Assembly: GCA_006738865.1 (NCBI GenBank)
Contig: AP019701.1
Coordinates: 549,001-613,000, forward strand
Origin: Allostella sp. ATCC 35155
GTDB lineage: Bacteria > Pseudomonadota > Alphaproteobacteria > ATCC43930 > Allostellaceae
DNA: 64,000 bases
Direction of reading: 5' to 3'
Shown here: positions 16,682 through 26,019 of the stretch, in pieces
How the letters are laid out: the number at the start of each line of letters is the position of its first letter
Numbering within the stretch: the first letter of the stretch is position 1
The notes under the pieces: model-generated
Told to the model about the DNA's origin: nothing
The model's database searches: none
The model's input: the letters and a program-made list of their open reading frames with translations, nothing else
Translations under genes and position numbers: made by a program

Positions 16682-17509
16682 TCAGCAGACGGTACGATGG
16701 CGCTCCTTGCAGATTTCCAGCACCTCGTCGGGGTCGCGCCGCCACCAGTTGCCGGCCGAGAAGATCTCGACCTCGTGCAGCCCGGTGAACCCGACGCCCT
16801 CGACCATGCCGCGGATCGCCGGGATGTCGATGACCCCGTCGCCCGGCATGCCGCGGTCGAGCAGCAGGTCGGTCGTCGGCACCAGCCAGTCGCAGATGTG
16901 GAAGGCGAGGATGCGCGCGGCGCCGGCGCGGGTGATCGCGCGCTCCAGGTTGGGGTCCCACCAGGTGTGGTAGACGTCGACGGCGACGCCCACCCCCGGG
17001 CCGAAGCGGTCGCAGAGGTCGAGCGCCTGGTCGACCGTGTTCACGCAGGCGCGGTCGGCGGCGTACATCGGATGCAGCGGCTCGATCGCGATCGGCACGC
17101 CTGCGGCCCTGGCATGCGGCAGGATGGCGGCGATGCCGTCCTCGACCATCCGACGCGCGCCCGCGATGTCCTTCGACCCGGCGGGCAGGCCGCCGACGAC
17201 GAGCACGAGGCAGGCGGCGCCGAGGGTGGCCGCCTCGTCGATCGCGCGGCGGTTGTCCTCGATGGCGGCCTGCCGGCCGGCGGCGTTGGGCGCGGGAAAG
17301 AGGCCGCCGCGGCAGAGCCCCGTCACCGTCAGGCCGGCGTCGCGGATGCGGCGTGCGGCCTCATCGAGGCCGAGTTCGGCCACCTTGTCGCGCCAGGGCG
17401 CGATGCCGCCGATGCCGTGGCGGGCGCAGCCCTCGATCGCCTGGGCGAGGTTCCAGCGCTCGCGCACCGTCGCCGTGTTGAGCGAGAGCTGCCGGGATTC
17501 GAGCGCCAT
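16682..17509 (-). CDS. Sugar phosphate isomerase/epimerase (TIM barrel, AP-endonuclease 2 family)
   Basis: The 275-residue protein is a xylose-isomerase-like TIM barrel. Metal-ligand candidates occur at the ends of successive strands: Glu in IAIEPLHPMYAADR, Asp/His in VAVDVYHTWWDPN, His in LAFHICDW and the final Glu in GLHEVEIFS. The family covers inosose dehydratase, hydroxypyruvate isomerase, tagatose epimerase and 3-keto-glycoside enzymes. The ATG overlaps the preceding gene's stop in TGATG, so the two are coupled. It is the last gene of the six-gene catabolic operon; the context suggests work on an oxidised sugar or polyol, which is inference. Confidence 0.85.
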   Translation of the reverse strand: MALESRQLSLNTATVRERWNLAQAIEGCARHGIGGIAPWRDKVAELGLDEAARRIRDAGLTVTGLCRGGLFPAPNAAGRQAAIEDNRRAIDEAATLGAACLVLVVGGLPAGSKDIAGARRMVEDGIAAILPHARAAGVPIAIEPLHPMYAADRACVNTVDQALDLCDRFGPGVGVAVDVYHTWWDPNLERAITRAGAARILAFHICDWLVPTTDLLLDRGMPGDGVIDIPAIRGMVEGVGFTGLHEVEIFSAGNWWRRDPDEVLEICKERHRTVC

Positions 17510-18672
17510 CACTGGATCCCGTGGACCGCCATCACCCGCCGCATCCGGTCGGCCGCGAGATCGGGGTCGCGCAGCAGCCCGGCCTTGTCGGCGAGGCGGA
17601 AGAGTTCGGCCAGATGGGTGATGGAGCGTGCGCTCTGCTGCCCGCCGACCATGGTGAAATGGTCCTGCAGGCCGTTGAGGTAGGCCATGAAGACGACGCC
17701 CGTCTTGTAGAAGCGGGTCGGCGCCTTGAAGATGTGGCGCGACAGCGGCACGGTCGGCGCCAGGATGTCGTGGAAGTCCTGCCTGCGGTCGTTGGCGAGC
17801 GCGGCGAGCGCCGCCGAGGCGGCCGGTGCGATGGCGTCGAAGATGCCGAGCAGCGCGTCGGAATAGCCCGCCTCGTCGCCGTCGATCAGTTCCGCATAGT
17901 TGAAGTCGTCGCCCGTATACATGCGCACGCCGTCCGGCAGGCGGCGGCGCATCGCGATCTCCTTGTCCTTGTCGAGCAGCGAGATCTTGATGCCGTCGAC
18001 CTTGGCCGCGTTCTCCTGCAGCATCGCGAGGCAGACTTCCATGCCCTGCCAATGGTCGGCATGGCCCCAGTAGCCGGCGAGCGCGGGGTCGAACATCTCG
18101 CCCAGCCAGTGGATGATGACCGGCTCCTTGGTCTGGCGCAGCACCCGGCCATAGACCTTGAGGTAGTCGTCGGGCGAGCGGGCGGCGGCGGCCAGCGCCC
18201 GGCTCGCCATCAGGATGATGCGGCCGCCGGCGGCCTCGACCTGGCCGACCTGTTCCTCGTAGGCGGCGATGACGTCGTCGACCGTGACCGACGGGCCGGC
18301 GGCGAGGTGGTCGGTGCCGGCGCCGCAGAACATCACGGCGCCCTGCCTTCCCGACTGGGCCGCGACCGAGCGCCGGATCAGCTCCAGCGAGGTCTTCCAG
18401 TCGAGGCCCATGCCGCGCTGGGCGGTGTCCATGGCTTCCGCGACGCCGAGGCCGAGATCCCACAGGCGCGAGCGGAAGGCGATCGTGCGGTCCCAGTCGA
18501 TCGCGGTCTCGATCCAGGGATCGTGCTCGGCGCGGGGATCGGCGACGACGTGGGCGGCGGCGAGCGCCACCCGGTTGAACGGCACGTTGGTGCGGTCGGG
18601 GAACTGGCGCGGCGCCCCGGTGGTGTAGCGGGCGATGGCGCCGCCGGCGGTCGGCAGGTCGAGGGTCGGCAT
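17509..18672 (-). CDS. DUF993 protein, dihydrodipicolinate synthase-like
   Basis: The 387-residue product belongs to the DUF993 family, often labelled dihydrodipicolinate synthase family. It is predicted to be a TIM-barrel aldolase; VFHDIL-like and VDGIKISLLDKDKE segments resemble the region of the Schiff-base lysine in that superfamily (candidate Lys in GIKIS). No member has a firmly proven reaction known to me. The start ATG has a strong AGGAGG site 9 bases upstream, 26 bases after the Gfo/Idh/MocA stop. Its regular neighbours, a Gfo/Idh/MocA dehydrogenase and a TIM-barrel isomerase, suggest a retro-aldol step after oxidation of a sugar-like compound. Confidence 0.8.
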   Translation of the reverse strand: MPTLDLPTAGGAIARYTTGAPRQFPDRTNVPFNRVALAAAHVVADPRAEHDPWIETAIDWDRTIAFRSRLWDLGLGVAEAMDTAQRGMGLDWKTSLELIRRSVAAQSGRQGAVMFCGAGTDHLAAGPSVTVDDVIAAYEEQVGQVEAAGGRIILMASRALAAAARSPDDYLKVYGRVLRQTKEPVIIHWLGEMFDPALAGYWGHADHWQGMEVCLAMLQENAAKVDGIKISLLDKDKEIAMRRRLPDGVRMYTGDDFNYAELIDGDEAGYSDALLGIFDAIAPAASAALAALANDRRQDFHDILAPTVPLSRHIFKAPTRFYKTGVVFMAYLNGLQDHFTMVGGQQSARSITHLAELFRLADKAGLLRDPDLAADRMRRVMAVHGIQ

Positions 18673-18698: not shown

Positions 18699-19844
18699 TC
18701 AGAGGGCCGGGATATCGATCCAGCGCCGCTCGCGCCAGCTCTGCAGGCCGAGCATGGCGAGCTGGACGCCCTTGGCGCCCGCCTTCAGGTTCCAGGGGAA
18801 GGGTCCGCCGTCGAAGAGGTGGCGGATGAAGAGTTCCCACTCGACCTTGAAGGCGTTGTCGTAGACCTGATTCTCCGGCACTTCCTGCCAGGTCTCGAAG
18901 AACTGGATGGCCTGCGGCACGTCCGGGTTCCAGACGGGCTTGGGCGTGTTCACCCGCGACTGGGTGAAGCAGCGCGTCAGGCCGGCGACCGCCGACCCCA
19001 GCGTGCCGTCGACATGGAAGGTGACGAGGTCGTCGCGGCGCACCCGCGTCGCCCAGGAGCTGTTGACCTGCACGACGACGCCGTCGCCGGCCTGGAAGGT
19101 GGCATAGGCCGCGTCGTCCACGTCGCAGTCGTAGGGCTGGCCGTTCTCGTCCCAGCGCTGCGGGATGTGGGTGGCGCCGAGGCAGGAGACGCTCTTCACC
19201 TCGCCGAAGAGGTTGTCGACGACGTAGCGCCAGTGGCACAGCATGTCGAGGATGATGCCGCCGCCGTCGGCCGCGCGGTAGTTCCAGGACGGGCGCTGCG
19301 CCGGCTGCCAGTCGCCCTCGAACACCCAGTAGCCGAACTCGCCGCGGACCGAGAGGATGCGGCCGAAGAAGCCGCTGTCGATCAGCATCTTCAGCTTGCG
19401 CAGGCCGGGCAGCCACAGCTTGTCCTGGACGACGCCGTGCCGCACCCCGGCCGCCTCGGCCCGGGCATGGAGGTCGAGCGCGTCCTCCAGATTGTCGGCG
19501 GTCGGCTTCTCGCAATAGATGTCCTTGCCGGCCGCGATCGCCTTGCGGATCACCTCGGCGCGCATGTTGGTCGAGGCGGCGTCGAAGAATAGGGTGTCGT
19601 CCTTGTTGGCGATGGCGGCGTCGAGGTCGGTCGTCCAGCGCTCGACGCCGTGCGCCTTGGCCAGCGCCTCGACCTTGGCGGCGTTGCGGCCGACCAGGAT
19701 GGGATCGGGCATGACGCGCGTGCCGTCGGCCAGCGCGACGCCGCCCTGCTGGCGGATCGCCAGCACCGAGCGCACCAGGTGCTGGTTGGTGCCCATGCGT
19801 CCGGTGACGCCGTTCATGATGATGCCGAGGCGCTTGGTCGCCAT
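18699..19844 (-). CDS. Gfo/Idh/MocA family oxidoreductase
   Basis: The 381-residue enzyme begins with an NAD(P)-binding Rossmann fold (LGIIMNGVTGRMGTN, residues 6-20) and has the family's EKPTADN motif, whose Lys is catalytic, followed by a C-terminal beta-sheet domain that binds the sugar. Members oxidise or reduce a hydroxyl of sugars, inositols or amino-polyols. VVNSSWATR-like residues in the C-terminal part are typical of the domain. It starts 4 bases after the ATPase gene's stop. Together with the DUF993 protein and the isomerase it forms a three-enzyme module. Confidence 0.88.
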   Translation of the reverse strand: MATKRLGIIMNGVTGRMGTNQHLVRSVLAIRQQGGVALADGTRVMPDPILVGRNAAKVEALAKAHGVERWTTDLDAAIANKDDTLFFDAASTNMRAEVIRKAIAAGKDIYCEKPTADNLEDALDLHARAEAAGVRHGVVQDKLWLPGLRKLKMLIDSGFFGRILSVRGEFGYWVFEGDWQPAQRPSWNYRAADGGGIILDMLCHWRYVVDNLFGEVKSVSCLGATHIPQRWDENGQPYDCDVDDAAYATFQAGDGVVVQVNSSWATRVRRDDLVTFHVDGTLGSAVAGLTRCFTQSRVNTPKPVWNPDVPQAIQFFETWQEVPENQVYDNAFKVEWELFIRHLFDGGPFPWNLKAGAKGVQLAMLGLQSWRERRWIDIPAL

Positions 19845-19848
19845 CTCG

Positions 19849-20613
19849 CTACTCCATGCCGAGGAGATGATAGAGCCGGCGCGAATACTCGCCGAAGGCC
19901 GGGCTGGTCTTCATGTCGAGCGTGCGCGGGTGGGGAAGATCGATGCGGATATGGTCGGCCATGCGGGCCGGCCCGGCCGTGAGCACGATCGTCTGGGTGC
20001 CGAGGAAGACCGCCTCGGCGATGCCGTGCGTGACGAAGAGGATGGTCTTGCCGCTCTCGCGCCAGATGCGCAGCAGCTCGATGTTCATCTTCTCGCGCGT
20101 CAGCGCGTCGAGCGCGCCGAACGGCTCGTCCATCAGGATGAGCTTGGGGTCGTGGATCAGCGAGCGTGCGATGGCCGCGCGCTGCTGCATGCCGCCCGAC
20201 AGCTCGTAGGGGTACTTGTCCTCGAACCCGGCCAGCCCGACCATCGCCAGCAGGTCGCGGGCGCGGGCGCGGGCGGCCTGCCGCGGCAGGCCCAGGATCT
20301 CGGCCGGCAGCAGCACGTTGTCGATGATCCGCCGCCATTTCAGCAGCAGCGCCTGCTGGAAGACCATGCCGATGTCGCGGCCGGGGTCGAAGGGCTGGCC
20401 GGCATTGCCGATGCGGACCTCGCCGGCCTCGTGCGGGTGCAGGCCGGCGAGGATCTTGAGGATCGTCGACTTGCCGCAGCCGGACGGGCCGACCATGGTC
20501 ACCAACTCGCCCTGCTCGACGTCGAAGGTGACCTCCGACACGGCGAGGAACTCCTTGCCCCGCGTGCGATAGACCTTGCGCACGCCGGCAAGGCGGATGA
20601 AGGGCTCGCCCAT
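19849..20613 (-). CDS. ABC transporter ATP-binding protein (SsuB/TauB/NrtD type)
   Basis: The 254-residue ATPase carries Walker A GPSGCGKST, signature LSGGMQQRAAIAR and Walker B LILMDEPFGALD, and ends with the HGIAEAVFLG H-loop; the FGALD wording is typical of the nitrate/sulfonate/taurine importer group. The ATG at 20613 is used here; a GTG at 20622 would overlap the permease stop as GTGA and is an equally good choice because neither has a clear ribosome binding site. Its permease partner is directly upstream, while the matching type of binding protein lies 4.4 kb away at 25.0 kb. Confidence 0.9.
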   Translation of the reverse strand: MGEPFIRLAGVRKVYRTRGKEFLAVSEVTFDVEQGELVTMVGPSGCGKSTILKILAGLHPHEAGEVRIGNAGQPFDPGRDIGMVFQQALLLKWRRIIDNVLLPAEILGLPRQAARARARDLLAMVGLAGFEDKYPYELSGGMQQRAAIARSLIHDPKLILMDEPFGALDALTREKMNIELLRIWRESGKTILFVTHGIAEAVFLGTQTIVLTAGPARMADHIRIDLPHPRTLDMKTSPAFGEYSRRLYHLLGME

Positions 20614-20618
20614 GGCCG

Positions 20619-21380
20619 TCACGTGACCCGCGCGTCGCGCACGACGAAGATGCGTTCGAGCACCACCACCAGGCCGTAGAGCAGGACGCCGAGCAGGCTG
20701 ATGAGGGCGACGGCCATGAACATGGCGGCCGTGTCGAGCGTCACCTGCACCTGCAGCATGAGGTAGCCGAGCCCGCTGTCGGAGCCGAGGAACTCGCCGA
20801 CGATGGCACCGGCGACGGCCAGGATCGCCGCCACCTTCATGCCGGAGAAGATGTAGGGCAGCGCGCCCGGCAGCTGGATCTTGACGAAGATCTGCCAGCG
20901 CGAGCCGCGCAGCGAGCGCACGAGGTCGAGCAGGTCCGGCTCGACCTCGCGCAGGCCGCGCGCGGTCGTCAGCACGATCGGGAAGAAGGCGATCGAGAAG
21001 GCGATCAGCGCGTTCGGCACCACGCCGTAGCTGAACCAGACGATGAAGAGCGGGCCCAGCGCCACCTTGGGGATCATGTTGAAGGTGATGAGGACGGGCA
21101 TGACGGCGGCTTCCAGCAGCCGCGACCAGGTGAAGACCAGGGCCGCCGCTACGCCCAGCACCACCGCCAGCGCATAGCCGCCATAGATCTCGATCGCGGT
21201 GACGCGGATGTTCGACCACCACGGATAGTCGCCCGCGACGAGCGCCTGCAGCGTGTCCCACGGCGTCGGCATGACGTACGTGGGCACCTCGCCCCAGACG
21301 ACGAAGAAGTGCCATGCCGCGATCACCAGGACATGCGCCAGGATCGCCAGGCCGATGCGCCACGCGCCGCCGCCGCTCAT
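20619..21380 (-). CDS. ABC transporter permease (SsuC/TauC type)
   Basis: The 253-residue inner-membrane protein has six membrane segments and the binding-protein-dependent transport loop (EFLGSDSGLGYLMLQ) that docks on the ATPase. It matches permeases of the nitrate/sulfonate/taurine/thiamine-precursor group, which work as homodimers, explaining why only one permease gene is present. It lies 48 bases after the PhyH gene and overlaps or abuts the ATPase gene. Substrate unknown. Confidence 0.9.
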   Translation of the reverse strand: MSGGGAWRIGLAILAHVLVIAAWHFFVVWGEVPTYVMPTPWDTLQALVAGDYPWWSNIRVTAIEIYGGYALAVVLGVAAALVFTWSRLLEAAVMPVLITFNMIPKVALGPLFIVWFSYGVVPNALIAFSIAFFPIVLTTARGLREVEPDLLDLVRSLRGSRWQIFVKIQLPGALPYIFSGMKVAAILAVAGAIVGEFLGSDSGLGYLMLQVQVTLDTAAMFMAVALISLLGVLLYGLVVVLERIFVVRDARVT

Positions 21381-21428: not shown

Positions 21429-22172
21429 TCAGCTCACCCGCACGATCGCCGCCTCGTCGTAGGGCAGGGCGGGGTGGGTGAACGCGTTGCCGGCGCCAAC
21501 ATAGTGGAAGGCGACGGCGCGGCGCCACCGGGTCGAGCGGTTGGTCCCCGACTGGTGCAGGGTGCCGCCATGGTGGAAGGAGACGCCGCCCTTGGGCACG
21601 GGCGCCGGCGTCATCTCGACGGTGGCGGCGATGTCCGGCGGCACCTGCAGGTTGAAGGGCTCGTTGGCGGGCGCCATGTGCGGCAGCAGCGGCCGGCGAT
21701 GGCTGCCGTGTCCGAAATGCAGGCAGCCATTGTCGACGGTGGCGGTGTCGAGCGCGATCCAGGCGGTGACCAGCCCCTCGGGATCGGCGGGGCCGAAGTA
21801 GAAATTGTCCTGGTGCATCGGCTTCGGCCCGCCGCCCTCGGGCGGCTTGAAGAAGATCTGGCTGAAATAGACCGCGACGCCCGGCCCGATCAGCTCCTCG
21901 ACGAGGCCGACCAGCCGCGGGTCCGCCGCCAGCTGGCCGAAGGCGGCCCGCGCGAAGTGCGGGTTGTCGAGCTTGCGCAGCACGGTGCGCGCCTTGACCC
22001 CGCCATCGACGTACCAGCGCCGCTGGTCCGGCGCGAGGTCGGCCAGGAAGCTCTCCCCCCACGCCTCGGCGTCGGCGATCGCGGCATCCATCTCGTCGGG
22101 CCGGAACACGGCCGGCACGGTCAGGTGCCCGGCGGCGGCGTAGAAGCGCCGCTCGACGTCGGACAAGGCCAT
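21429..22172 (-). CDS. Phytanoyl-CoA dioxygenase (PhyH) family oxygenase
   Basis: The 247-residue enzyme is an Fe(II)/2-oxoglutarate-dependent oxygenase. The metal triad is visible: His120 and Asp122 in KPMHQDNFYF and His206 in GGTLHQSGTNRS, and Arg217 or Arg218 (RWRRAV) is placed to bind 2-oxoglutarate. PhyH relatives hydroxylate varied small molecules or release amines, sulfite or phosphonate fragments from them. It is the first gene of the catabolic operon, 134 bases from the divergent serine hydrolase, with a 16-bp inverted repeat just upstream. First position beside an importer suggests that it makes the first attack on the imported compound. Confidence 0.87.
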   Translation of the reverse strand: MALSDVERRFYAAAGHLTVPAVFRPDEMDAAIADAEAWGESFLADLAPDQRRWYVDGGVKARTVLRKLDNPHFARAAFGQLAADPRLVGLVEELIGPGVAVYFSQIFFKPPEGGGPKPMHQDNFYFGPADPEGLVTAWIALDTATVDNGCLHFGHGSHRRPLLPHMAPANEPFNLQVPPDIAATVEMTPAPVPKGGVSFHHGGTLHQSGTNRSTRWRRAVAFHYVGAGNAFTHPALPYDEAAIVRVS

Positions 22173-22189: not shown

Positions 22190-22205
22190 GTAACCGGTTG
22201 GTTAC
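22190..22205. promoter_or_regulatory. Inverted repeat, operator copy 1 (proposed TetR site)
   Basis: GTAACC-GGTT-GGTTAC lies 18 bases upstream of the PhyH start, in the gap shared with the divergent serine hydrolase gene. The same 16 bases occur, reverse complemented, at 24919-24934 next to the tetR gene. Perfect identity of two sites, each in a divergent promoter region of the same locus, marks them as an operator for the local regulator. Confidence 0.75.
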
Positions 22206-22306
22206 TTAAGCGGGAGCGACCGCCGCTTGTCAACGGCAGCGCGGCCTTCCAACCGATCCCGTGCCCGGTTAGCCTCGCAGGCCCCGCATCATCCCGAGAC
22301 TCTCCC

Positions 22307-23899
22307 ATGCCCTCCGCCGCCATTCTCGCCCTCGAAGGGCGCGTCGATCGTCTCGTCCAGGCCTGGAGCGGGCCGGATTCGCCCGGGTGCGCCATCGGCG
22401 TCGTTCGCGGCGGCGAGGTGCTGCTGCGCCGCGGCTACGGCATGGCCAGCATCGAGCATGGCGTCGCGATCGAACCGGGCACCGCGTTCCGCATCGCCTC
22501 GGTGACCAAGCAGTTCACGACCGGCGCGGCCCTCGCGCTGGCGCTGGAGGGTCGGCTCGACATCGACGACCCGGTGCAGGCGCACCTGCCCTGGCTGCCC
22601 GACTACGGCACCCCGGTCACGCTGCGCCACCTGATGCACAATGTCAGCGGCCTGCGCGATTATCTGGAGCTGACGCGCTGGGGCGGCATGGCGCTCGACC
22701 GGCCGGCCTCGGAGGCGGACCTGACGGCGGCGATCGCGCGCGCCGGCGGCCTCAACTTCCCGCCCGGCAGCCGCTTCCTCTACAGCAACACCAACTTCCT
22801 GCTGCTCGGCCAGATCGTCGAGAAGATCGAGGGCGAGCCGCTGGAGGCGGTGCTCGACCGCCGCTTCTTCCAGCCCGTCGGGATGACCCGCACCCGCCTC
22901 GTGCGCGACCCCTCGACGGTGGTGCCGCGGCTCGCGACGCCCTATCTGCGCCAGCCGGACGGCTCGGTGATCCGCGCCTGGCAGGCCTATCCGACGGTCG
23001 GCGAGGGCGGCCTCGTCTCCTCGCTCGACGATCTGTTGCGCTGGGCCCGGCACTATGACCGGCCGCTCGCCGGCATGGCGCATCTCGTCCAGGCGATGCA
23101 GCAGGAACTGCCGCTGACCGGCGGCGGGTGGCAGCCCTATGCCCGCGGCCTCGAGGTCGGGACATGGCGCGGCGCCCGCACGGTCGGCCATGGCGGCCTC
23201 TGGCCCGGCTACCGGACGGAATTCCTGCGCGTGCCCGAACGCGATCTCGCGGTCGTGGTGATCGCCAATGTCGACGCCATCGACCCCCATCGCCTCGCCC
23301 GGGCGGTCGCCGCTGCGGCGCTGGCGGAGGAGGGACTGCCGCCCGAGCCCCCGCTGCCGCCGGGGCTGGACCGGCTGGCCGGCCGCTGGCTCGATGCCGA
23401 GGGCCTCTGCGTCTACGAACTCACCCCCTCCGCTGCCGGCCTCACGGGCCGCTCCAACGGCGTCGGCTATTCCTTCCAGCCGGCGGGCGGCGGCTGGATG
23501 CGCGCCTATCGCGGCGCCTTCGAGCTCGCGGTCCGGGCCGACGGCGACGGCGTCCTCGCCGACACCGGCGCCGGCCGCGTCGTCCGGCTGGAGCGGGTGG
23601 CGGAGACTGCCCTGCCGTCCGGATTGCCGGGACGCTACCTCGCCGACGAGCTGGCGACGGAATGGACGGTGGCCGCGGATGGCGCCGGCCTCGCCGTCCG
23701 CTGCCGCGGCCCGCTGGCGGCGGCCGGGCCCTGGCCGGTGACGGCGGTCGGCCCCGACATCGTCGAGATCGCGATGCCGAACCGCTGGATGAGCTCGACC
23801 GTGATCGCAGCGGTCGAACGCGATGCCGGCGGCCACGTCGCGGGGCTGCGCGCATCCAGCCCGCGCATCCGCGAGCTGCGGTTCCGCCGCGTGCCGTGA
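22307..23899 (+). CDS. Serine hydrolase, class C beta-lactamase family
   Basis: The 530-residue protein has the penicillin-binding fold: Ser65-x-x-Lys68 in IASVTKQF, Tyr159-Ser-Asn161 in FLYSNTNF, and an HGG triad equivalent in VGHGGLWPGYRTE. An extra C-terminal portion of about 170 residues, after the catalytic domain, looks like a beta-barrel lipocalin-like extension seen in D-aminopeptidase and esterase relatives. No signal peptide is apparent, which argues against a cell-wall or antibiotic-resistance role and for a cytoplasmic amidase or esterase. It is divergent from PhyH and its last bases overlap the decayed metallo-hydrolase gene (GTGA). Confidence 0.87.
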   Translation: MPSAAILALEGRVDRLVQAWSGPDSPGCAIGVVRGGEVLLRRGYGMASIEHGVAIEPGTAFRIASVTKQFTTGAALALALEGRLDIDDPVQAHLPWLPDYGTPVTLRHLMHNVSGLRDYLELTRWGGMALDRPASEADLTAAIARAGGLNFPPGSRFLYSNTNFLLLGQIVEKIEGEPLEAVLDRRFFQPVGMTRTRLVRDPSTVVPRLATPYLRQPDGSVIRAWQAYPTVGEGGLVSSLDDLLRWARHYDRPLAGMAHLVQAMQQELPLTGGGWQPYARGLEVGTWRGARTVGHGGLWPGYRTEFLRVPERDLAVVVIANVDAIDPHRLARAVAAAALAEEGLPPEPPLPPGLDRLAGRWLDAEGLCVYELTPSAAGLTGRSNGVGYSFQPAGGGWMRAYRGAFELAVRADGDGVLADTGAGRVVRLERVAETALPSGLPGRYLADELATEWTVAADGAGLAVRCRGPLAAAGPWPVTAVGPDIVEIAMPNRWMSSTVIAAVERDAGGHVAGLRASSPRIRELRFRRVP

Positions 23900-24231
23900 C
23901 CGTCCGCTTCCGTTTCCTCGGCAGCGGCGATGCGTTCGGCAGCGGCGGCCGGTTCCAGACCTGCTTCCACCTGGCCGGCCCGTCGGGGGCGGTGCTGATC
24001 GATTGCGGCGCCTCCTCGATGATCGCGATCCGCCGCTTCGGTGTCGACCCGAACGCGGTCGACGCGGTGCTGATCACCCATCTCCACGGCGACCATTTCG
24101 CCGGGCTGCCCTTCTTCCTGCTCGACGCCCAGCTCACGAGCCGGCGGACGCGGCCGCTCGCCATCGCCGGACCGCCGAACTCGCCGAGGACGGGCTGGAA
24201 CTCGTGCTCTGAGCTTTACGGCGCGAGGTAG
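23896..24231 (+). pseudogene. Metallo-beta-lactamase-fold hydrolase with internal deletion
   Basis: The frame opens at a GTG overlapping the serine hydrolase stop and encodes a normal N-terminal half of an RNase Z-like MBL-fold hydrolase: FRFLGSGDAFGSGGRFQTCF, LIDCGAS and the metal motif THLHGDHFAG (His62, His64, Asp66, His67). After PLAIAGPP near residue 94 family similarity stops and the frame ends at 111 residues, against about 250 expected. In another frame the next bases read RTAELAEDGLELVL and a stop at 24212, which looks like the genuine C terminus of such a protein. So the middle appears deleted with a frame change. It lacks the later His and Asp metal ligands and should be inactive. 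Confidence 0.7.
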
Positions 24232-24902
24232 CGCAGGATCAGGTCGACATGCAGCGCCGACCGGCGCTCCGTCGTCTCCGGCCGGGCGAGGTCGCGGCCG
24301 AACACCACCGACAGCGTGTGGATGTTCGAGAAGTAGAAGTAACCGAGCGCGGCGATGGTGATGTAGAGGTCGAGCGGATCGACGCCCGGCCGGAAGGTGC
24401 CGTCGGCCTCGCCGCGCGCCAGCAGCCGCCCGATCGTGTCGATGACCGGCAGGTTGACCGCGCGAACCTTGGCCGACTTTGCGAGGTGGCGGGCGCGGTG
24501 CAGGTTCTCGTTGGCCAGCAGGTGGATGAAGCCGGGATTGTCGCGGCAGAAGGCGAAATTGTAGGCGACGAGGCGGGCGATGCCCTCGGCCGGCGCCACG
24601 TCTTCCACGGCCAGCGCGCGCTCATGGCCGCGGATGCGGTCGTAGGCCAGCTCCAGCACGGCGAGGTAGAGCCCGGCCTTGCTGCCGAAATAGTGATAGA
24701 TCATCCGCTTGTTGGCGCCGGCGCGGAGCGCGATGGCGTCGACCCGTGCCCCGCCCAGGCCCTTGGCCGAGAACTCGGTCCAGGCCGCCTCGAGCAGGCG
24801 CTGGCGCGTCTCCTCCGGCTGGCGGGAACGCTGCCGCTGGCGGGATGCGTCATGCTCCGGGGGCCGGAGCGGCTCGGGGGTTCGATTGACAGGGGCCGAC
24901 AC
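24216..24902 (-). CDS. TetR/AcrR family transcriptional regulator
   Basis: The 228-residue protein has a TetR N-terminal domain: TRQRLLEAAWTEFSAKGLGG, then the helix-turn-helix VDAIALRAGANKRMIYHYFG with the usual YHYFGSKAGLY recognition end. The rest is a helical ligand-binding domain of the common TetR C-terminal type (ending LHVDLILRYLAP). The GTG at 24902 is used because an upstream TTG would place the operator inside the gene; neither has a clear ribosome binding site. The 16-bp inverted repeat at 24919-24934 lies just upstream and between this gene and the divergent binding-protein gene, the classical place for an autoregulatory TetR operator. Confidence 0.88.
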   Translation of the reverse strand: MSAPVNRTPEPLRPPEHDASRQRQRSRQPEETRQRLLEAAWTEFSAKGLGGARVDAIALRAGANKRMIYHYFGSKAGLYLAVLELAYDRIRGHERALAVEDVAPAEGIARLVAYNFAFCRDNPGFIHLLANENLHRARHLAKSAKVRAVNLPVIDTIGRLLARGEADGTFRPGVDPLDLYITIAALGYFYFSNIHTLSVVFGRDLARPETTERRSALHVDLILRYLAP

Positions 24903-24918
24903 GGGCGAATACCGTTGG

Positions 24919-24934
24919 GTAACCAACCGGTTAC
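24919..24934. promoter_or_regulatory. Inverted repeat, operator copy 2 (proposed TetR site)
   Basis: GTAACC-AACC-GGTTAC is the exact reverse complement of the site at 22190-22205. It lies in the divergent gap between tetR and the ABC binding-protein gene, so one bound dimer could control both, while the second copy controls the permease operon and the serine hydrolase. Confidence 0.75.
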
Positions 24935-25011: not shown

Positions 25012-26019
25012 ATGCGGACGCTTGCGACGGCGGCGGCGATGGCGGTGGCGATGACCGGGCTTGCCGGCGGCGCCTCGGCCCAGAAGCTGCAGAAGGTCGA
25101 GTTCTTTCTGAACTGGGTTCCGGGCGGCGACCACGCCCCCTACTATTTCGCGCGCAAGACCGGGCGCTACGAGGCGGTCGGCATCGATCTCGAAATCCAG
25201 CCCGGCAAGGGCTCGGCGGTCGCCATCCAGCGCGGCGCGGCCGGTGCCAGCCCGCTGGTCCTGGCCGACATGGGCGCTGCCCTCATCGCCCGCGGCAAGG
25301 GCGCCGAGACGGTGGCGGTGATGAACGTCTACGCCAACTCGCCGCAGGGCCTCTACTGGCTGAAGAGTTCCGGCATCAAGACGGTGAAGGATCTCGCCGG
25401 CAAGAAGATCGGCAACCCGCCGGGCGATGCCGCGCGCGTCGTGTTCCCGGCGCTCGCCCGGAATGCCGGGATCGATCCCGGCAGCGTCACCTGGGTCAAC
25501 ATCGACGCCAACGGCAAGCTGGCGGCGCTGAAGTCGAAGGCGATCGACGCGACGACCTCCTTCTACAACATCCACCACATCTTCCAGCGCCAGCTGGGCG
25601 ACGACATGGGCTTCCTCGCCTGGCGCGACGCCGGGGTGAACCCCTACGGCAACTCGATCCTGGCCAACCCGAAGTTCCTGGCCGCCAACGGCAAGCTGGT
25701 CGCGGACTTCGTCAAGGTGACCCAGAAGGCGTTCGCCGACTGCGTCGCCGATCCCAAGCCCTGCGTCGAGGCGCTGGTCGAGGCCAACGGCGCTCTCAAG
25801 TTCGACAACGAGATGACCAACTGGGGGCTCGTCACGGTGCTGATGAGCGACAAGGTCTCGCGCACCGTGGCACTCGGCTGGCACGACGAGACCCGCATGG
25901 CGGCCGACTACGATCTCGCCGCCACCTACTTCAAGCTCGACAAGCCGTTCGACGTGAAGACCGTCTACACCAACAGCTTCCTCGACAAGTCGATCAAGAT
26001 GACCGAGCCGAAGAAGTGA
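25012..26019 (+). CDS. ABC transporter substrate-binding protein (SsuA/THI5-like)
   Basis: The 335-residue protein has a Sec signal peptide (cut after ASA, residue 23) and a type II binding fold of the NMT1/THI5 family: VEFFLNWVPGGDHAPYYFAR at the start, VGIDLEIQPGKGSAVAIQRG and the GKKIGNPPGDAARVVFPAL cleft segment. Relatives bind pyrimidine precursors, riboflavin, sulfonates or nitrate-like anions, and the LNW-P-GDHAPYY wording is closest to pyrimidine/riboflavin-type proteins. It stands alone; the permease and ATPase of matching type are 4 kb away in the operon with the same operator. A GGGGAGG site precedes the start. Confidence 0.9.
   Translation: MRTLATAAAMAVAMTGLAGGASAQKLQKVEFFLNWVPGGDHAPYYFARKTGRYEAVGIDLEIQPGKGSAVAIQRGAAGASPLVLADMGAALIARGKGAETVAVMNVYANSPQGLYWLKSSGIKTVKDLAGKKIGNPPGDAARVVFPALARNAGIDPGSVTWVNIDANGKLAALKSKAIDATTSFYNIHHIFQRQLGDDMGFLAWRDAGVNPYGNSILANPKFLAANGKLVADFVKVTQKAFADCVADPKPCVEALVEANGALKFDNEMTNWGLVTVLMSDKVSRTVALGWHDETRMAADYDLAATYFKLDKPFDVKTVYTNSFLDKSIKMTEPKK

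Follow-up and report, generated by a model that had tools for sequence, protein, structure and literature searches.

Candidate TetR operators shared by a lone binding-protein gene and a separate transporter operon in Allostella sp. ATCC 35155

Introduction

The window analysed here is a 64,000-nucleotide stretch of the Allostella sp. ATCC 35155 genome (contig AP019701.1, positions 549,001 to 613,000). It contains an ABC substrate-binding protein gene beside a tetR gene at 25.0 kb, and permease and ATPase genes in an operon at 20-21 kb. Does the lone binding protein belong to this transporter, and what would link the two transcription units? An earlier note on this DNA had proposed that a 16-bp inverted repeat present at both places, and bound by the TetR, provides the link. 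The features concerned are listed below.

16682-17509, minus strand: xylose-isomerase-like TIM barrel (AP_endonuc_2, through the 90%-identical copy in the related genome G001)
17509-18672, minus strand: DUF993 protein (PF06187, through the 92%-identical G001 copy)
18699-19844, minus strand: Gfo/Idh/MocA oxidoreductase (domain match)
19849-20613, minus strand: ABC ATPase; the best NCBIfam match is of the taurine type and below the cut-off
20619-21380, minus strand: ABC permease, BPD_transp_1 (domain match)
21429-22172, minus strand: PhyH-family dioxygenase, first gene of the operon (domain match)
22190-22205, minus strand: candidate operator 2, the same 16-mer as operator 1 in reverse complement, 17 bases upstream of PhyH
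22228-22233, minus strand: TTGACA, putative -35 element for transcription of the PhyH operon; operator 2 follows 28 bp downstream
24216-24902, minus strand: tetR, 228 aa, TetR_N and TetR_C_29, RutR-like (domain and curated-model matches)
24886-24891, plus strand: TTGACA, putative -35 element for transcription of the binding-protein gene; operator 1 follows 33 bp downstream
24919-24934, plus strand: candidate operator 1, GTAACC-AACC-GGTTAC, in the tetR/binding-protein divergent gap
25012-26019, plus strand: ABC substrate-binding protein, NMT1/THI5-like (PF09084; domain and structure-homologue matches)

Results

Genes of the locus and the proposed split transporter

The operon runs in the order PhyH, permease, ATPase, Gfo/Idh, DUF993 and xylose-isomerase-like TIM barrel, which is the last gene conserved with the PhyH operon. 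None of these genes encodes a binding protein. PF09084, BPD_transp_1 and ABC_tran are all present in the window, as expected of an NMT1/SsuA-type ABC importer. The regulator has the N-terminal TetR_N helix-turn-helix (PF00440, E 2.5e-13) and the TetR-type C-terminal domain (PF17938, E 3.8e-41) of its family, each over the gathering score. A conserved palindrome, its putative operator, lies near its own gene in the expected place.

Among the 21 loci with a binding-protein homologue of at least 50% identity, the permease is found in 19 and the ATPase also in 19. In locus L127, the binding protein, the site, tetR, the permease and the ATPase all lie within about 5 kb. This co-occurrence and the L127 arrangement support assigning the binding protein to the 20-21 kb transporter, a pairing that the earlier note had already made.

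The DUF993 family has a solved structure (4dnh, an uncharacterized protein), and the DUF993 gene adjoins the Gfo/Idh gene in many TetR-homologue loci. At 23896-24212, a metallo-beta-lactamase-fold gene is reduced to 105 codons and looks like a decaying gene. A far longer open copy occupies the same place in the related genome G003, and G001 has no room for it between tetR and the hydrolase.

The candidate operator pair

In the window, the pattern GTAACCNNNNGGTTAC is matched without mismatch only at 22190-22205 (GTAACCGGTTGGTTAC) and 24919-24934 (GTAACCAACCGGTTAC). These two sites are exact reverse complements over 16 of 16 bases, the N4 spacer included. The next-best window matches to GTAACC-N4-GGTTAC have three mismatches, which is chance level. 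The 64-kb window holds eight copies of the half-site, four of which make up the two operators. The whole genome was examined by pattern search only; among its 5,339,096 bases, the exact pattern is found twice, as the window pair, and the backwards control pattern is not found. The window count agrees with the earlier reading of exactly two full sites, and the genome-wide search for which that note had called returned these two copies rather than many unrelated ones.

Both sites fall within divergent gaps, again as described before. Operator 1 lies between the GTG of tetR (24902, minus strand) and the ATG of the binding-protein gene (25012, plus strand). Operator 2 lies between the ATG of PhyH (22172, minus strand) and that of a serine hydrolase gene (22307, plus strand).

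Short palindromes arise randomly, and matches with two or three mismatches are at chance level. In contrast, about 0.12 exact sites are expected per genome at 69% GC, and the two that were found are 2.7 kb apart, identical over 16 bases and kept across species. The probability that they are chance palindromes is negligible.

Conservation within the genus

Four species of the genus were compared: the window genome (G000), G001, G002 (the same contig as locus L004) and G003. In the tetR/binding-protein gap, GTAACCGGTTGGTTAC is identical in all four, within a larger conserved block. The site of the PhyH operon reads GTAACCAGACGGTTAC in G001, GTAACCACATAGTTAC (one mismatch) in G002 and GTAACCAACTGGTTAC in G003. 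In the four-species alignment of the PhyH promoter, the main conserved blocks are TTGACA, both half-sites and the ribosome-binding site. The spacer and flanks vary, and the half-sites are fixed save for the G002 mismatch.

G003 is a natural rearrangement that points to the operon served by the second operator. Here the PhyH operon is relocated by 9 kb, and the exact site travels with the operon, not with the serine hydrolase. Because PhyH keeps the site and the hydrolase has none nearby, operator 2 probably acts on the PhyH operon, to which it is best assigned, rather than on the divergent hydrolase. The earlier note had placed it in a PhyH/hydrolase gap; the divergent gap is real, but the operator is better placed on the PhyH side. 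It is nevertheless conceivable that the site at 22190 acts on the serine hydrolase, either alone or together with the PhyH operon. On its other side, the site is 102 bp from the start of the hydrolase gene, and the divergent arrangement is kept in three of the four congeners. We consider this unlikely. In G003, about 6 kb separate the hydrolase from the PhyH operon, and no sequence near the hydrolase matches the site with three mismatches or fewer; moreover, operator 2 falls inside what is presumed to be the core promoter of PhyH.

A DNA loop joining operators 1 and 2 was considered but set aside, as their spacing goes from 2.7 kb in the window to 9 kb in G003.

A probable third, unlinked operator

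With up to one mismatch allowed, the whole genome has one extra site, GTAACCAGTTGGATAC, outside the window at G000:C1:1408709-1408724 (L003:5710-5725). This site has the form GTAACC-N4-GGATAC, is 0.84 Mb from the operator pair and lies between an Fe-alcohol dehydrogenase gene and a PF01717 methionine-synthase-like gene. The same form is found at the same place in G001, G002 and G003, 34-35 bases before the PF01717 gene start. Homologues of the PF01717 gene in L005, L008, L015, L020, L041 and L127 have GTAACC-N4-[GA]GATAC upstream, and those in L022, L025, L026, L027, L042, L047 and L073 have none within 200 bases. Since it precedes PF01717 homologues in several loci, this variant is characteristic of the predicted PF01717-gene promoter. 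The regulon very probably includes the PF01717 gene, which in the genus is an unlinked target. The operator pair of the earlier note is real but very probably not the whole set.

The Fe-alcohol dehydrogenase opposite the third operator matches the NCBIfam model for 4-hydroxybutyrate dehydrogenase, and a TauD dioxygenase is also located there.

The motif and the TetR family beyond the genus

Eighty loci were collected by TetR homology alone, one of which (L004) belongs to a congener. They contain 25 exact sites and 93 sites with one mismatch or fewer, and these are not independent events, as the Sinorhizobium loci include near-copies. In the same loci, 25 permuted half-sites used as a permuted-palindrome control average 3.0 sites and never exceed 10, compared with 93. 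At least one site (up to one mismatch) is present in 61 of the 80 loci. The remaining 19 have none at this threshold in the fetched DNA; several have plausible two-mismatch sites. The symmetric profile is WA-GTAACC-R-NN-Y-GGTTAC-TW, in which T2 and C5 never vary and A3 and A4 hardly vary.

The genes flanking the sites in the 80 loci are the binding-protein gene with tetR (12), Gfo (19), DHDPS-like (15), PhyH (5) and ATPase (4) genes. A pair of binding-protein and DHDPS-like genes is also recurrently downstream of sites. In Sinorhizobium meliloti, the site precedes a Gfo-DUF993 operon. Autoregulation is not universal, because in many Sinorhizobium loci the site is found before the operon only and not before tetR. 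In L128, the TetR gene adjoins Gfo-DUF993 and there is no site.

On the TetR tree, the loci that have a site group together, with 16 changes in site presence compared with 25.4 in shuffles (0 of 500 as low). This clustering comes partly from relatedness and is supporting evidence only. The genome encodes two paralogues of this TetR, at 43% and 40% identity; both are outside the clade of the window TetR, and no such site is found near them.

The sites could be real operators that are bound by another regulator, encoded elsewhere, with the adjacent TetR as a bystander. Some TetR homologues have no site nearby. However, loci chosen by TetR homology only are approximately 30-fold enriched for the motif relative to the permuted controls. 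Outside the genus, among 61 relatives, exact matches are about as frequent as those of the reversed control pattern. In many cases the site is next to tetR itself, and a 16-bp palindrome with an ACC/GGT core suits a RutR-like TetR. Another regulator is therefore very improbable. The same motif is present at regulator and target promoters and is conserved across relatives, as in a TetR local regulon. The link drawn earlier between TetR, binding protein and transporter gains support from a motif that tracks the TetR family and recurs in four of four genus species.

A variant 16-mer, GTAACGAACTGGTTAC, is present in four loci (L006:1593, L009:2462, L013:4075 and L030:4662) from Vineibacter, Reyranella, SYSU D60007 and the MAG PRO8. 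These sites are probably further regulon members. At L038:15768, L039:15761 and L068:12604, sites ending in GGTTAT precede an enolase-superfamily (MR_MLE) gene and are, in two of three cases, divergent from another permease. They are a possible alternative branch of the regulon.

Promoter geometry

The hexamer TTGACA is found three times on both strands of the 64-kb window. Two of the three copies are upstream of the operators and correctly oriented, and both are conserved in the four species. A consensus scan found no full sigma-70 consensus promoter and no -10 element in either gap. Because the TTGACA boxes start 28 and 33 bp upstream, the operators would cover the -10/+1 region, a placement that fits repression at the transcription start. 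Some TetR proteins act as activators, and the lack of a strong consensus promoter in the scan is what might be expected if this TetR were an activator or dual regulator and not a simple repressor. That is distinctly unlikely, since the operators would lie over the presumed -10/+1 region, at those short distances past the start of a conserved TTGACA.

Discussion

Proposed mechanism

The sites, their uniqueness, their co-occurrence with the TetR, their conservation and the promoter geometry are read directly from the DNA. From these features we infer that the window TetR probably binds the sites, that it represses and does not activate, and that a ligand releases it. A dimer of the TetR (24216-24902) would bind WA-GTAACC-R-NN-Y-GGTTAC-TW operators that overlap the transcription start. 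Without its ligand, it would block RNA polymerase at the binding-protein promoter and at its own promoter, and would also block the PhyH-permease-ATPase-Gfo-DUF993-isomerase operon. The TetR would be released by a small molecule, probably either the substrate being imported or an early intermediate, and the separately encoded binding protein would then be made along with the permease and ATPase. Very probably, the same repressor would also control the unlinked PF01717 gene 0.84 Mb away in the genus. We hold this explanation as a whole, from TetR repressor and shared operators to ligand release and the PF01717 target, to be highly likely. On the operator-mediated link itself, the earlier reader was almost certainly right. 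The locus would then be a split ABC transporter kept in register through shared operators.

Novelty and meaning

The kind of system is ordinary, a RutR-like TetR local regulon. In the literature searched, with RegPrecise outside the search, there is no description of the motif, DUF993 or the gene set, and the S. meliloti regulatory-network paper does not mention the motif. Within that same literature, the regulon and the pathway that it controls appear undescribed.

A broader reading, plausible but held tentatively, is that the TetR defines a widespread, undescribed regulon of the Alpha- and Betaproteobacteria that comprises NMT1-type uptake, PhyH or DHDPS-like, Gfo/Idh, DUF993, isomerase and MetE-like genes. 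The PhyH dioxygenase or DHDPS-like aldolase would be among the processing enzymes of a catabolic pathway. If this reading is true, the stand-alone MetE-like methyltransferase suggests a methylated substrate. The main interest lies in the substrate and in a group of little-characterised enzymes that are conserved together, with DUF993 and a stand-alone methionine-synthase-like enzyme tied to one transporter and one regulator. Whatever frees the TetR from GTAACC-N4-GGTTAC offers a route to the substrate.

Comparison with known systems

The RutR box, TTGACCAnnTGGTCAA, has an ACCA-NN-TGGT core, as does the commonest form of the window motif; the ends of the half-sites differ. RutR, the E. coli pyrimidine-utilisation repressor, is the best NCBIfam model for the window TetR, at 58.5 bits compared with a TIGR03613 cut-off of 368 bits, so that the TetR falls below the equivalog level. 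The genes adjacent to the sites are binding-protein, PhyH, Gfo, DHDPS-like, ATPase and PF01717 genes, not rut or pyrimidine genes. RutR binds a palindrome of approximately 16 bp in the divergent gap between regulator and operon, a placement that the palindrome here also has, and is released by uracil (PMC10891134). The closest solved relative along the chain is PDB 3npi (E 3e-26), a TetR-family regulatory protein of unknown role.

The window transporter is of the SsuABC/TauABC/ThiXYZ kind. Like ThiY- and SsuA-type NMT1 importers, its binding protein matches PF09084, and it also matches 3ix1, an N-formyl-aminomethylpyrimidine binding protein. The importer differs from these systems in scoring below every substrate-specific cut-off, and its operon adds PhyH, Gfo/Idh, DUF993 and a TIM-barrel isomerase.
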